From: Acetomicrobium flavidum | GTDB taxonomy: Bacteria; Synergistota; Synergistia; Synergistales; Acetomicrobiaceae | NCBI RefSeq assembly: GCF_900129645.1 | Contig: NZ_FSQZ01000001.1 | Coordinates: forward strand, 1,884,001-1,948,000 | DNA: 64,000 nt | Direction: 5' to 3' | Shown here: positions 1 through 4,477 of the stretch, in pieces | Numbering within the stretch: the first letter of the stretch is position 1 | Layout of the letters: every line of letters starts with the position of its first letter | Notes under the pieces: generated by a model | Database searches by the model: none | Told to the model about the DNA's origin: nothing | The model's input: the letters and a program-made list of their open reading frames with translations, nothing else | Made by a program: the position numbers and the translations under genes

Positions 1-497
1 CAGGAGCCGATATGGTTAAAATAGGCCTTTACGGTGCAAAAACATCCGATGAGGCCTTGAATCTGCTTTGCTCGGTCGCAAATGCGTTAAAAATGTATTT
101 CCCGACCTCTTTGCTGGTCGCAGGAGCTTACGCGGATGCTCAAATCTTTGGCGGCATTAATTTCCTTGATGTCCCGGCTTTGGCCGCGAAGGCCGGTGCT
201 GCAGGTTGTCTTCTTGATACTTTTGATAAATCCTTCGGCCACAACTTGCTTGAGATTGCCTCCATGGAGGCAATAGGGGATTTTGTCTCGGCCTGCAGGG
301 AATGGGGCCTTTTTTCTGCCTTGGCTGGTTCTTTAAAACTCGAAGATGTACCTTTATTATTGCCCCTTAGGCCTGATTACCTGGGCTTTCGAGGTGCACT
401 TTGCGAGGGAGGTCGGTCGGGCAAACTTTCGTCAAGAAAGGTCCTTGAAATTTCATCGCTCATTGCAGGCGAAAGCAGCGCCTGTTGCCACAGCTGA
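1..497 (+). CDS. mfnB: MfnB-like 4-(hydroxymethyl)-2-furaldehyde-phosphate synthase, 5'-truncated by the window edge
   Basis: The MfnB family (DUF556) makes the furan precursor of methanofuran from two glyceraldehyde-3-phosphate molecules. The visible 160-odd residues match the C-terminal two thirds of this TIM-barrel enzyme: an IGLYGAK segment, a GAYADA strand, the LLDTFDK segment and a C-terminal GFRGALCEGGRSG phosphate-binding loop. The family is usually about 235 residues. The frame stays open to base 3 and reads GAD before the first visible Met, where full-length homologues continue, so the true start lies to the left. The last 38 bp overlap the convergent kinase gene. The neighbours resemble MfnE, MfnF and MfnD, which strengthens the call. 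Which cofactor is actually made in this bacterium is inferred, not seen. Confidence 0.82.
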   Translation, partial: GADMVKIGLYGAKTSDEALNLLCSVANALKMYFPTSLLVAGAYADAQIFGGINFLDVPALAAKAGAAGCLLDTFDKSFGHNLLEIASMEAIGDFVSACREWGLFSALAGSLKLEDVPLLLPLRPDYLGFRGALCEGGRSGKLSSRKVLEISSLIAGESSACCHS

Positions 498-1071
498 CGG
501 TGTCGTTTAGCGAAAGCTTCTTATTTCCGTCGCACAGCCAGACCTCCCCATTGTAGCGGGAAAGGAAACGGAAGAACATTGGATCGACCCAACTTGTGCC
601 CGTAAGGTCCTTCACGTCATGGGGAGGAATGTTGTCTTTAAGCAGGACAAGTCTTGAGGCGTCGAAGGCTGCGGCGATAAAGCAGGCCAAGCTGTCAGAG
701 GTTGTTTCCCAGCTTTCGGGTATTCCTCTTTGCTCCTTAAGCCAGTTAGATGGCAAAAATATAGGGATCTTTCCCGAAAGCCAGGCCTGTGATATATCTT
801 CTTTGTTGTAGGCCGTTACGGAATGCGGTACCTTTTCAGCAAGAACGTAACCAAATTGATCCATCGCCAGCACGGCCATCCAGTGAGACGTGAAAGCCGC
901 TAGCTTCCATTGTCTGTCGCATAGGCGTACCTCATCGGCAAATTTACCGCCTCCCGGTACCACTATGCATTTATGGCCTCGCAGCGACTCGCTTAAATTT
1001 CTGCATATCTCAAGAAATCGTGGTAGCCTTTCAAGGCTTCCGCCAAATTTTACTACGACTTCGGCGGACAT
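460..1071 (-). CDS. mfnE: amino acid kinase family protein, MfnE-like
   Basis: A 203-residue protein of the amino acid kinase fold, close in size to archaeal MfnE, which phosphorylates aminomethylfuran phosphate to the diphosphate in methanofuran synthesis. Seen in the sequence: the N-terminal VVVKFGGSL strand and glycine loop, the VVPGGGKFADE motif near residue 40, a central ESWETTSDSLACFIA helix that would place nucleotide or substrate, and an LVLLKDNIPP strand near residue 140. It overlaps the 3' end of the MfnF-like gene by 19 bp, so the two are probably translationally coupled. The family also includes uridylate, aspartate and glutamate kinases; the small size and the neighbouring genes favour MfnE. 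It is the last gene of the minus-strand operon. Confidence 0.75.
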   Translation of the reverse strand: MSAEVVVKFGGSLERLPRFLEICRNLSESLRGHKCIVVPGGGKFADEVRLCDRQWKLAAFTSHWMAVLAMDQFGYVLAEKVPHSVTAYNKEDISQAWLSGKIPIFLPSNWLKEQRGIPESWETTSDSLACFIAAAFDASRLVLLKDNIPPHDVKDLTGTSWVDPMFFRFLSRYNGEVWLCDGNKKLSLNDTVSCGNRRCFRLQ

Positions 1072-2096
1072 GAGAGGTAAATGGCCAAATCCTTGGCAGC
1101 AGCATAGGCGGGAAAATGTTTCTTAACCACATCAGGGATGATCGCCTCAGTATTTAAGATTGACAGATTTGCCCGGAGGGCTGCCTGAATTCCTAAGGAT
1201 TGGCCTGCTCCCGTGACTGCGGCAGGCCCCTTTACGTGGGGCTGCGAGCAAACTTGATACAGCGCGTCAACTATTAGCCCGATTTGACGTTCCCTCAAAT
1301 ATCCGGCCAATGGCAACAGATCTTCTGGCTTTATAAGAGAAGCGTCCGCACATATAAGTCGGGCCAGGCGACGGGCAGCGCCCTCGGCGTTAACGGATCC
1401 GCTGTCAGGCGGGGTACAGCTGTAGTCTTTCGGGTCGATTTCGCCTAAAAGAAGGTAGCAGTCTCCCATGACGGCAAAATATTCGTTGGAAGTGCGATAC
1501 CAGTCTCCCCTAAAGGGAAGCAGTGAGGCTAGGGCGTTGGGATTTGAGCGGATTAAGCCCGTATAGACCAGCTCGCCGAAGCGCAGTCTGTCTGTGTCGT
1601 TTCTTCCTCTAACGTACAGGGCATTTTCTTTGATGGGTATTATGTCCGTTGTGGTGCTTCCAACATCTATCCATATTCCGTCGCCGATGGACCTTGCTAT
1701 CTCTCGCGCAGCCGCAATCCAATTGGTCGCCGCAAGGTTGATCGGATCGCCCATGGCTTTTTCTGCTGGCACCCACCTTTCGTCTGTGCCAAGGCACATA
1801 AGCTGGATGCCAGGAAATGTATTGATGAAGGCATCCAGCACGAAGCGCACACCTTCAGCTTTGGTGGCAAAACAATCGGAAAGTTCAGCCGTCATGGTGA
1901 TAGCCATGGCTGTGTTGGAGAGGGAGATGTCTGAGGCAAGATACTCAAGCACCGTCGACAGCTTGTCAGGGTCCCTCCATATCTCAAAGGTCATATCCTT
2001 AGAGCTTAAAAGGGCAAAGTCGCCTGAGATGCAGGCGCACTTACTTTGTACCCCGCCAATGTCCCAGCCTACGATCACGTCGTATGTTTTTAGCAT
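1053..2096 (-). CDS. mfnF: hydantoinase/oxoprolinase-type protein, MfnF-like
   Basis: A 347-residue protein of the hydantoinase-A-like/ASKHA fold found in H4MPT- and methanofuran-linked C1 gene sets. In methanogens MfnF joins the furan diphosphate to the tyramine-glutamate unit. The N-terminal VGWDIGGVQSKCA phosphate loop and a second WIDVGSTTTDIIPI loop near residue 140 are the two phosphate motifs of the fold; a conserved-looking PAAVTGAGQSLGIQ segment sits near residue 290. The start overlaps the upstream ATP-grasp gene by 7 bp and the 3' end overlaps the kinase by 19 bp, as expected for one transcript. Whether the amine partner is tyramine or tyrosine cannot be read from the sequence. Confidence 0.78.
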   Translation of the reverse strand: MLKTYDVIVGWDIGGVQSKCACISGDFALLSSKDMTFEIWRDPDKLSTVLEYLASDISLSNTAMAITMTAELSDCFATKAEGVRFVLDAFINTFPGIQLMCLGTDERWVPAEKAMGDPINLAATNWIAAAREIARSIGDGIWIDVGSTTTDIIPIKENALYVRGRNDTDRLRFGELVYTGLIRSNPNALASLLPFRGDWYRTSNEYFAVMGDCYLLLGEIDPKDYSCTPPDSGSVNAEGAARRLARLICADASLIKPEDLLPLAGYLRERQIGLIVDALYQVCSQPHVKGPAAVTGAGQSLGIQAALRANLSILNTEAIIPDVVKKHFPAYAAAKDLAIYLSCPPKS

Positions 2097-3184
2097 GATA
2101 AACCCTCCACGGTGTAATCAATTTTCGGCACAGCAGAATCTGATGGAAGCTTGTCGAGGAGGCAGGCTTCCATCAATGCCTCGGCTATGTTCCAAGTTGC
2201 AAACTTCCCCAGGAAGGCCAAAGGCGTAGTGATCCTCGGGTTTACCTCAAGCACCTGGGAGCCCTTCGTAGTCATGATCAGGTCAATTCCAACATATCCC
2301 ATAAGACCTTGTATCGCGTCTACGACAGTCTGGCTAAGCCCTTGAAGGTATTCCAGACTTGTGCCTCCGTAGGCAGCATAGTCCTCTTCGGAAAGGCCAG
2401 TTTTTCCTCCTATGTACCTAAAGCTTGCGGATTTGCCATCATCGCTTTCAGTTAGGGCGATCTTTTGCTCGTTTACCGAGATGAGATGTGCCTTCCCGCT
2501 TCGGCTTATCAAAAGGGACAAGCTGGCTGGGAATCCTTTTATGAATGGCTGAATGATTAAACCTCTTGGATCGGCTTTATTTGACGTTAAAAATTCATCA
2601 AGTTCGATTTTGTTGTTAAGCAAATTGCTTCCCTCTCCTCCGGTCCCGCAGGAGGGCTTGACGACAAGGGGAAAACCCCACGACAGGGCCGCCTCTTTTA
2701 TCGTGGTTTGGTCGTAGGCTACGGCAAAAGGCGAACACGGCACTCCTTTGTCGGCAAGCAGTTCAAGAAGGCGAGCCTTGTCCGACGCTGCCTCTACGGC
2801 ACCTGGGGCTGATCCCAAAATTATACCGCCGGCTTGAGTCACCTTTAAGGCAAGACGCGCGGATATCCCCTGCGTCTCTGGAGCAATGAGTACAACGAGT
2901 TTGTTTCCGCAAAGCTCAAACAGTACACTTTCTCCTTCGCCATTGTGCACGATGTACTGGTTTTGCCGTTCGGTAGGGTCAAGGGCAAAGGAGAACCTTT
3001 CGTTCAAGATCAAAAGGGGCTTTATGTAGTTCAGGCGAGAAAAACAGGAAAGCATCGTCCTCGCCATAAAGAGACCTTCCCTTGCAAAGGATCTGTCGTT
3101 CTTTCCTTTATCTTCGCCCGACGAAAAATGTTCGTATATTATTACCTGTCGATGAGAGCCTGATGCATTTCTTAAAATTGACAA
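2090..3184 (-). CDS. ATP-grasp ligase, MfnD-like (tyramine/tyrosine-glutamate ligase candidate)
   Basis: A 364-residue ATP-grasp protein. The N-terminus has IIYEHFSSGE and a REGLFMARTMLSCF helix, as in the archaeal tyramine-L-glutamate ligase MfnD. The ATP-grasp core shows FPLVVKPSCGTGGEGS near residue 165, the LIIQPFIKG hinge, and a C-terminal VLEVNPRITTPLAFLG Mg-binding segment typical of that subfamily. The start is TTG with AGGTGA six bases upstream. It lies only about 30 bp after the phosphofructokinase stop and overlaps the MfnF-like gene, so the four minus-strand genes are probably one transcript. By homology it would add glutamate to a tyramine or tyrosine unit. Other amino-acid-amide ligases share the fold, so the substrate is inferred from context. 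Confidence 0.72.
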   Translation of the reverse strand: MSILRNASGSHRQVIIYEHFSSGEDKGKNDRSFAREGLFMARTMLSCFSRLNYIKPLLILNERFSFALDPTERQNQYIVHNGEGESVLFELCGNKLVVLIAPETQGISARLALKVTQAGGIILGSAPGAVEAASDKARLLELLADKGVPCSPFAVAYDQTTIKEAALSWGFPLVVKPSCGTGGEGSNLLNNKIELDEFLTSNKADPRGLIIQPFIKGFPASLSLLISRSGKAHLISVNEQKIALTESDDGKSASFRYIGGKTGLSEEDYAAYGGTSLEYLQGLSQTVVDAIQGLMGYVGIDLIMTTKGSQVLEVNPRITTPLAFLGKFATWNIAEALMEACLLDKLPSDSAVPKIDYTVEGLSC

Positions 3185-3214: not shown

Positions 3215-4477
3215 TTACAGCCCAGCCACATATCCGTATTTTTCCACGAACTGCTGCGGCGTCATGTTGGCGATGCGCGACATCTTGTTTAAGAGGAATT
3301 CCGATTCGAAGTCGCCCCTTTCCAGGCGGATCATGTATTCCTTGGCAATTCGGTATTGCAGCGAATTTGTATCCACGAGCCTGATCCTCATCTTGCCCGT
3401 GGTGGGGTCTACTATTTCATCGAAGGGTATGGGCGTCAGTTGGTTGTTTTGTATGGTGATCACAGCATTGGTGCCGCCGCCTGCCAGAAACTCGAAGGCA
3501 CCGTAACCCAAGTTTCGGGTGTACTCCACGTCGAAGGGATTTGGGGGAGCGCATCTGACTTCGTATCCGATCTCCTTGTTTTGGACCGATATGGGGATGC
3601 CCATCTTCTTTAGCTCGCCGTTAAGCTGCTTTTTTAAGACGTCGGAGAAGTTGATCTCGGCATAGCGGACGTGCCCGTAGTCGTCCTTTTCTATGGAATC
3701 TATGGCCGCCAGCTCCTGAGAGGGGATTTTGGAGATCAGCCCTTCGGCCGCCACTATCACGCCATGGTCCTTTTCCAGGGCAAGTCTTTTTATGATGGCG
3801 CCGCTCATTATATCGATGACGTGCTTAAGGCATATGGTGTCTCCCTCGAACTCCTCTGGTATTACGGTGAGCGTGGCGCTGGCACTTTTGCCTATGCCTA
3901 AGGCCAAATGTCCGCTGGAACGTCCCATCGTTACGACCAGAAACCAGCGGCCCATGGTCTTTGCATCCTCCATTAGGTTCATCACCAGCTCGGCACCCAG
4001 TGCCCTGGCCGTCTCAAAGCCAAAGGTGGGCAGCCCCTCGGGCAAAGGCAGGTCGTTATCTATGGTCTTTGGGACGTGGACGAAATGGATGTTTAAGCCG
4101 AGCCTTTCCCTGGCAAACTCAGACAGCTTGTAGGCAGCGTAGGCCGTATCGTCCCCGCCGATGGTGACTATATGGGTGACGCCAAGGTCGACCAAGTTTT
4201 CGACCACTGTCTTTAGCGTCTGTTCGCTTTTTGTGGGGTTAAAGCGCGACGTGCGCAGTATGCTTCCTCCCTCGGTGTGGATGCGGCTTACCATGTCTAT
4301 GGTAAGGGGGATGACCCTTTTATTGGCCGTTGCCAGACGGGAAAAGCCGTCGCAGATGCCAAGCACGTCCCAGCCGTTGTTTCGCGCCTCTATGGTGACG
4401 GAAGCTATTACGTTGTTTATCCCCGGCGCGGGCCCTCCGCCGCATATGAGGGCCAAGGTGTTGTCCTTAAAGTTCAT
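3215..4477 (-). CDS. pfp: PPi-dependent 6-phosphofructokinase
   Basis: A 420-residue phosphofructokinase that converts fructose 6-phosphate to the 1,6-bisphosphate in glycolysis. The N-terminal LICGGGPAPGINNVI loop, the VTIGGDDTAYAAYKL segment and VPKTIDNDLPLPEG are present. Asp in place of the second Gly of the GGDG motif, and Lys in PKTIDND instead of Gly, are the two residues known to specify PPi rather than ATP, so a PPi donor and reversible reaction are expected. The MGRSSGHLALG motif for substrate binding is also intact. An acceptable start is the ATG at 4477, with AGGAGGA placed before it on the minus strand. The closely spaced Mfn-like genes follow downstream on the same strand. Confidence 0.9.
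   Translation of the reverse strand: MNFKDNTLALICGGGPAPGINNVIASVTIEARNNGWDVLGICDGFSRLATANKRVIPLTIDMVSRIHTEGGSILRTSRFNPTKSEQTLKTVVENLVDLGVTHIVTIGGDDTAYAAYKLSEFARERLGLNIHFVHVPKTIDNDLPLPEGLPTFGFETARALGAELVMNLMEDAKTMGRWFLVVTMGRSSGHLALGIGKSASATLTVIPEEFEGDTICLKHVIDIMSGAIIKRLALEKDHGVIVAAEGLISKIPSQELAAIDSIEKDDYGHVRYAEINFSDVLKKQLNGELKKMGIPISVQNKEIGYEVRCAPPNPFDVEYTRNLGYGAFEFLAGGGTNAVITIQNNQLTPIPFDEIVDPTTGKMRIRLVDTNSLQYRIAKEYMIRLERGDFESEFLLNKMSRIANMTPQQFVEKYGYVAGL

Follow-up and report, generated by a model that had tools for sequence, protein, structure and literature searches.

The window, a 64,000-nucleotide stretch of the Acetomicrobium flavidum genome, opens within a gene island related to the biosynthesis of methanofuran. 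This formyl-carrying coenzyme is best known from methanogenic archaea and is usually assigned to methanogens and aerobic methylotrophs. The island and its neighbors are as follows, with negative coordinates lying upstream of the window.

-1768 to -995, upstream of orf17 and outside the window: lipB
-992 to -252, upstream of mfnB and outside the window: orf17 (TIGR00734, identity to methylotroph Orf17)
1 to 497 (ORF 3-497), plus strand: 3' two thirds of mfnB, predicted (5-formylfuran-3-yl)methyl phosphate synthase (PF04476, identity to MJ1099, gene extents)
460 to 1071, minus strand: mfnE-like kinase, predicted [5-(aminomethyl)furan-3-yl]methyl phosphate kinase (AA_kinase, 2.7e-13; MfnE model; methylotroph kinases)
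1053 to 2096, minus strand: mfnF-like gene for an H4MPT-linked C1 transfer protein of the hydantoinase/oxoprolinase family, predicted to catalyze the last condensation of the methanofuran core (TIGR03123)
2090 to 3184, minus strand: mfnD/orf1-like ATP-grasp ligase, predicted tyramine (or tyrosine)-glutamate ligase (ATP-grasp_3, 1.6e-27; MfnD model; tree)
3215 to 4477, minus strand: PPi-dependent phosphofructokinase (pfk), the neighbor at the island edge (NF041103, 628 bits)

The whole mfnB gene encodes 250 amino acids and occupies G000:C1:1883745-1884497 (window -255 to 497), its start being cut by the window edge. It converges on mfnE with a 38-bp overlap, and the minus-strand genes overlap one another by 19 bp (mfnE/mfnF) and 7 bp (mfnF/mfnD). 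The sequence-only reading had described a window-cut MfnB and an overlapping MfnD/MfnF/MfnE operon beside a PPi-phosphofructokinase, and all of these elements were located as described. The island ORFs are all intact, free of stops, and retain their active-site residues. Chance similarity and mis-called ORFs were rejected as explanations: the genes belong to four independent families found together, three of the genes form an overlapping operon, and the island proteins are 79-93% conserved in two further species.

The product of the whole mfnB gene matches Pfam family 4HFCP_synth (PF04476; E = 1e-77) and is 44% identical over 231 amino acids to MfnB from M. jannaschii (MJ1099). Its K162 aligns with Lys155 of MJ1099, a residue named as catalytic/substrate binding (PMC11365854), and D32/K34 align with the Asp-x-Lys of the M. 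jannaschii protein. MfnF scores 284 bits with TIGR03123, which exceeds the curated cutoff, and matches a solved archaeal relative (3c0b/3cet; E = 2.7e-38). Orf17 reaches 137.6 bits with TIGR00734 (cutoff, 179.85), is 32-35% identical to Orf17 from methylotrophs, and separates in the tree from the HisA and HisF of its own genome (support, 91/93).

MfnB, MfnE, and MfnD score under the strict archaeal equivalog cutoffs of NCBI. For MfnE, which has an amino-acid-kinase fold, the MfnE model yields E = 3.9e-23 and 82 bits versus a cutoff of 300; for the ATP-grasp protein MfnD, the MfnD model yields E = 4.3e-17, under the archaeal MfnD cutoff. Such scores could indicate that these two are an unrelated amino-acid kinase and ATP-grasp ligase merely neighboring mfnF, but we regard this as highly improbable. 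Given the scores, the assignment is carried by reciprocal similarity, gene order, and the tree. MfnE, the more tentative of the two assignments, shares 32-35% identity (E down to 3e-30) with the kinases encoded next to mfnF in clusters of methylotrophs and finds its best kinase match in MfnE, with only 20.7 bits for argB. MfnD falls into a clade with Orf1/MfnD ligases from methylotroph clusters (support, 100/99) that excludes MyfA and MyfB. MfnD/Orf1, MyfA, and MyfB each form a supported group of their own in this tree, and all three are present in this genome. Moreover, both genes are part of the overlapping operon with mfnF. On an Azoarcus plasmid that also carries fae and mch, mfnD-F-E again form one overlapping operon converging on mfnB, and orf17 is present too, all in the same order and orientation; plasmids from Thiodictyon and Azospirillum carry orf17/mfnD/mfnF. 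Neither protein thus groups with unrelated ligases or kinases.

The tyrosine decarboxylase MfnA, of either the archaeal type or some methylotroph types, gave nothing above the cutoff, with a best score in this genome of about 34 bits versus 299. This absence is not decisive, since M. extorquens produces methylofuran and also lacks MfnA (PMC8141765). For the MfnC aminotransferase, M. extorquens has five candidate homologues. Orf17, MyfA, and MyfB are needed for methylofuran in methylotrophs, with Orf17 being essential in M. extorquens (PMC8141765).

The sequence-only reading had noted that the window lacks the formyl-transfer partners; they were found elsewhere in the genome. About 92 kb from the island, a single C1 cluster (G000:C1:1977311-1996002) holds fwdDBA, fwdC, ftr, mch, and an mtdB-like gene, together with mptA for H4MPT biosynthesis (its domain being part of a folK-mptA fusion), beta-RFAP synthase, and myfA/myfB homologues. 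A chemoreceptor (MCP) gene also sits inside this cluster; a link between the chemoreceptor and the mfn island was ruled out, as UBA5826 carries mfn genes without an MCP gene there. FwdA, FwdB, FwdC, and FwdD are all present. FwdB retains the Mo/W-ligand cysteine and the N-terminal Fe-S cysteines (CxxCxxxC, C33, and the SVCHGP cysteine), of which the SVCHGP cysteine is missing in FhcB from methylotrophs, a protein without Mo/W-bisPGD (PMC10100899). Because these metal-ligand and Fe-S cysteines are kept, FwdB looks like a true CO2/formylmethanofuran dehydrogenase and is predicted to act as such, rather than as the Fhc hydrolase of methylotrophs. Fhc formyltransferase/hydrolase systems are marked by an FhcB lacking the Mo/W ligand and by Fae, neither of which was found here; given the absence of Fae from all 27 Synergistota genomes searched, a methylotroph-style formaldehyde detoxification was rejected. 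FTHFS is also present, in nearly all genomes examined, indicating that C1 metabolism does not run through the H4MPT pathway alone; replacement of folate C1 metabolism was therefore rejected as its sole role.

The island is far less widespread than the pathway. Among 151 sampled Synergistota, Ftr occurs in 18 genomes, MfnB in only 4, and MfnF in 3, with one MfnB carrier (G113) counted as MfnF negative with uncertainty, since its contig ends within mfnB; MfnB is absent from 14 of the 18 Ftr-positive genomes. The three carrier Acetomicrobium genomes each have MfnB, MfnF, MfnE, and Orf17 together, and both this island and the C1 cluster are present in A. hydrogeniformans OS1 (G018, L102, L047). 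A scan of named genomes with a three-row MfnB alignment, which was too narrow, found 3 loci. In a 99%-complete Acetomicrobium congener (L098), the slot between pfk and lipB is empty and pfk directly faces lipB, while the C1 cluster is intact and conserved. Two further genomes (G085 and G130) were not counted as island losses, as the pfk locus itself is missing from their assemblies.

mfnDFE has recently been exchanged between Acetomicrobium species. Together with the sister lacking the island and a lipB gene truncated beside the island in UBA5826, this might suggest that neither the pathway nor the island does much in the lineage, both being remnants or recently acquired horizontal baggage. 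We consider this improbable: the island ORFs are intact and keep their active-site residues, the C1 cluster is conserved across five families, and its dN/dS values between island-less and island-bearing sisters are mostly 0.02-0.26, which points to purifying selection. A somewhat less improbable, though still unlikely, alternative is that the island yields a related furan amine other than the Fwd/Ftr carrier, and that Synergistota rely on a different or otherwise obtained carrier for their C1 cluster. This would explain the 14 Ftr-positive genomes without MfnB and the congener whose C1 cluster is maintained beside an empty slot. However, Orf17-MfnB-MfnD-MfnF-MfnE is the exact methylofuran set in conserved order, and genomes without the island likewise encode MyfA and MyfB, enzymes acting on methylofuran, within their C1 cluster.

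We therefore favor, with high but not full confidence, the reading of the locus as a methanofuran/methylofuran core-biosynthesis island whose predicted product serves an FwdABCD/Ftr/Mch/MtdB-like pathway. The sequence-only proposal that a nonmethylotrophic anaerobe makes a methanofuran-like formyl-transfer cofactor thus gains support from orthology, the tree, and the partner cluster, from which we infer the enzyme activities, the cofactor and its structure, and the direction of flux. MfnB would convert glyceraldehyde-3-phosphate to the furan phosphate, an aminotransferase in the role of MfnC would aminate it, and MfnE would phosphorylate the aminated furan. MfnD would join glutamate to tyramine or tyrosine, MfnF would couple the two halves, Orf17 would carry out a further, essential step, and MyfA/MyfB from the C1 cluster would add further glutamates. 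The product would be the carrier for an archaeal-type, redox-active formylmethanofuran dehydrogenase (FwdABCD), as well as Ftr, Mch, and the MtdB-like dehydrogenase, so that the pathway would link CO2 and methylene-H4MPT in fermentative Acetomicrobium. Counting against this reading are the sub-cutoff scores of MfnB, MfnE, and MfnD, the missing MfnA match, the lack of Fae, the presence of FTHFS, and the rarity of the island among pathway carriers.

Since most pathway-carrying Synergistota lack the island, the formyl carrier may also be supplied in other ways. A more speculative and rather doubtful extension is that most Synergistota with Fwd/Ftr/Mch/H4MPT make, import, or replace the carrier without MfnB/MfnE/MfnF/Orf17, so that core biosynthesis would be an accessory trait open to exchange within Acetomicrobium, and that the uncharacterized protein DUF2193, a concrete candidate for the missing step, provides C1 entry into the H4MPT pathway in place of Fae. 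The two close Acetomicrobium species with clean presence and absence of the island represent a natural knockout pair, in which it is directly testable whether the pathway can run when the known biosynthesis is absent, be it through salvage, substitution, or a different carrier. That a synthesis set accompanies a redox-type Fwd in a sugar/peptide fermenter that is anaerobic and lacks Fae also raises the question of what the pathway does there, with biosynthetic CO2 reduction and electron disposal as options.

Acetomicrobium shares with methylotrophic Proteobacteria (Methylorubrum, Methylobacillus, and Azoarcus) Orf17, MfnB, the MfnE-like kinase, MfnF, MfnD/Orf1, MyfA, MyfB, Mch, the MtdB-like protein, beta-RFAP synthase, DHPS-like, DUF447, and CitG-like genes, and the Azoarcus arrangement of mfnD-F-E converging on mfnB. 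In contrast to them, it is an anaerobic fermenter without Fae, keeps the FwdB cysteines and FwdD expected of a dehydrogenase rather than an Fhc hydrolase, and carries its mfn genes in a separate, patchy locus. Compared with the MfnA-F and Fwd/Ftr/Mch of methanogens, its MfnB is closer to the M. jannaschii protein (44%) than to those of methylotrophs (34-35%), the best solved matches of FwdA and FwdB are methanogen-type formylmethanofuran dehydrogenases, and FwdD and DUF2193 are shared; unlike methanogens, it has no recognizable MfnA, and it has bacterial orf17/myfA-type genes and the folK-mptA fusion. H4MPT/MFR genes (fwd/ftr/mch) were noted for Synergistetes in 2016 (PMC5020050) and for A. 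hydrogeniformans OS1 in 2018 (PMC6025917), so the pathway itself is not new. These reports list the C1-transfer enzymes and do not describe the mfn island; the novelty seems to lie in its distribution, with a patchy synthesis island, an empty slot, and exchange between species.

The sequence-only reading had placed MfnB-, MfnE-, MfnF- and MfnD-like genes beside a PPi-phosphofructokinase gene (pfk), and model matches and gene positions bear this out in the Acetomicrobium genome of the window (G000; 2.02 Mb, 99.9% complete; window at C1:1884001-1948000), where the locus is arranged as follows.

First 3.2 kb of the window, plus strand: 3' end of mfnB (complete gene 250 aa; start outside the window)
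First 3.2 kb of the window, following mfnB, minus strand: overlapping mfnD-mfnF-mfnE operon
Upstream of the mfnD-mfnF-mfnE operon: pfk
Outside the window, preceding mfnB: orf17, HisA/HisF-related (246 aa; TIGR00734)
Outside the window, on the same side of mfnB as orf17: lipB

MfnB shares 44% identity over 231 aa with its Methanocaldococcus counterpart, M. jannaschii MfnB, and the alignment shows conservation of Lys155, the catalytic residue according to a structural study (PMC11365854). MfnF exceeds the curated cut-off of TIGR03123 and matches a solved archaeal relative (3c0b) with E=2.7e-38. MfnE and MfnD are matched by the expected models with scores below the archaeal cut-offs, and both were therefore subjected to further orthology tests.

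Formyl-transfer partners, which that reading had not seen in the window, are present elsewhere in the genome (fwdABCD, ftr, mch, and folK-mptA). A search for FwdA led to a single C1 cluster, separated from the mfn locus by about 92 kb.

G000:C1:1977311-1996002, start: mobA, DUF2193, mtdB-like, myfA, fwdD, fwdB, fwdA, folK-mptA fusion, DHPS-like
Same cluster, rest: DUF447, beta-RFAP synthase, ftr, chemoreceptor, fwdC, mch, mptN/myfB, citG-like, fdhD
L011:13302-14849 (G000:C1:1978302-1979849): DUF2193, immediately preceding mtdB

Within this cluster (stretches L011 and L012), folK and mptA form a single open reading frame (HPPK joined to GTP cyclohydrolase MptA; L012:2183-3643), a fusion that recurs in several other Synergistota loci. 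The gene for a methyl-accepting chemotaxis protein (L012:7373-8668) lies between ftr and fwdC in G000, G018, and G130 and is not at that position in G015, G085, and G089. Other Acetomicrobium clusters hold a PF02441 flavoprotein between mptA and the DHPS-like gene (e.g., L047:10757-11314), which G000 lacks at L012:3643-3644.

In FwdB, the cysteine motif at the N terminus and the SVCHGP cysteine are both conserved, and the three methylotroph-type FhcB proteins compared lack the second of these; according to a survey, FhcB does not hold the Mo/W cofactor (PMC10100899). Together with FwdD, MobA, and FdhD, these cysteines indicate that G000 Fwd is a redox formylmethanofuran dehydrogenase. Following established MfnB-F enzymology and work on methylofuran (PMC8141765), a furan phosphate would be synthesized, aminated, and then phosphorylated, while glutamate would be ligated to tyramine or tyrosine, followed by condensation and glutamate extension. 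Since our search found no MfnA equivalog, the cofactor core may be built on tyrosine, like that of M. extorquens, or on tyramine supplied by another decarboxylase. Fwd would interconvert CO2 and formyl-MFR, Ftr formyl-MFR and formyl-H4MPT, Mch the formyl and methenyl forms, and the MtdB-like enzyme the methenyl and methylene forms. Fae was not found in 27 Synergistota searched. FTHFS occurs in nearly all Synergistota searched, so a folate route operates alongside the H4MPT pathway. DUF2193, for which a PDB search returned no relative, shows the highest conservation in the cluster (93% between G000 and A. hydrogeniformans OS1; the other eight proteins compared reach 64-84%), and one might speculate that it supplies H4MPT with C1 units, as a candidate entry enzyme where Fae is missing.

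Among 151 sampled Synergistota, Ftr occurs in 18 and DUF2193 in 17, MfnB in only four (G000; two congeners, OS1 [G018; NZ_ACJX03000001] and UBA5826 [G089]; and G113), and MfnF in the first three of these; the negatives include two single-contig genomes (G022 and G033). MfnE was detected in OS1 and UBA5826 only among 16 relatives searched, and close Orf17 orthologues in exactly the four MfnB genomes. The identities between G113 and G000 (MfnB, 58%; Orf17, 44%) hint at an older presence of these genes in the phylum. A Conexibacter (Actinobacteria) MAG carries fwdC-mch-DUF447-RFAP synthase-mfnB (L104), its MfnB being 53% identical to that of the window over ~109 aa.

In another Acetomicrobium genome, G015 (99% complete), pfk faces lipB across 18 bp (L098) amid neighbors mostly 97-99% identical to those of OS1 (lipB, ~91-94%); the island slot is therefore empty, reflecting either loss in G015 or gain in OS1. 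The slot was scored neither in G085 nor in G130, as pfk is missing from both assemblies. The C1 cluster (Fwd/Ftr/Mch/H4MPT) is intact in G015 (L046), with dN/dS against OS1 mostly 0.02-0.26 (fwdC, 0.31; the short flavoprotein gene has too few synonymous changes for this ratio). Comparison of G000 with OS1 shows synonymous saturation in the nine C1-cluster genes examined (pS 0.75-0.91) and a dS of ~1.0 in pfk; dS is 0.50-0.62 for mfnB/orf17 and 0.12-0.21 for mfnE, mfnF, and mfnD. Given this low mfnDFE divergence, the mosaic identity along the locus, and the lipB pattern, the operon was probably exchanged recently between species: the last part of lipB is 94-96% identical among the three carriers and 75-79% identical to G015, and in UBA5826 only its last 164 bp remain beside orf17 (L049:7558-7721). 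In genes on the far side of pfk, dS is reduced as well (0.30-0.40, G000 versus UBA5826), so exchange here extends past the island.

A 2016 paper (PMC5020050) lists H4MPT/methanofuran-linked genes in Synergistetes, and one from 2018 (PMC6025917) lists fwdA-E, mch, and ftr in A. hydrogeniformans; our literature search turned up no account of the mfn island, of its patchy distribution, or of a pathway lacking the island. The main interest of the locus lies in the question it raises of the route by which the majority of these bacteria acquire a formyl carrier.

As an independent yardstick, we used methylotroph-type clusters carried on plasmids. In the ATP-grasp ligase tree, the window's MfnD groups with Orf1/MfnD (support 100/99), and thus not among unrelated ligases, while the two other G000 ligases group with MyfA (99/97) and MyfB (100/99). 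G000 Orf17 groups with methylotroph Orf17, apart from G000 HisA/HisF, with moderate support (91/93). In methylotrophs, gene deletion and LC-MS have established that methylofuran formation requires each of Orf17, MyfA, and MyfB (PMC8141765). As to gene order, orf17, mfnD, and mfnF are adjacent in Thiodictyon and Azospirillum, and Azoarcus KH32C carries orf17, an overlapping mfnD-mfnF-mfnE operon, and a convergent mfnB, so that both the operon and its orientation toward mfnB match the window.
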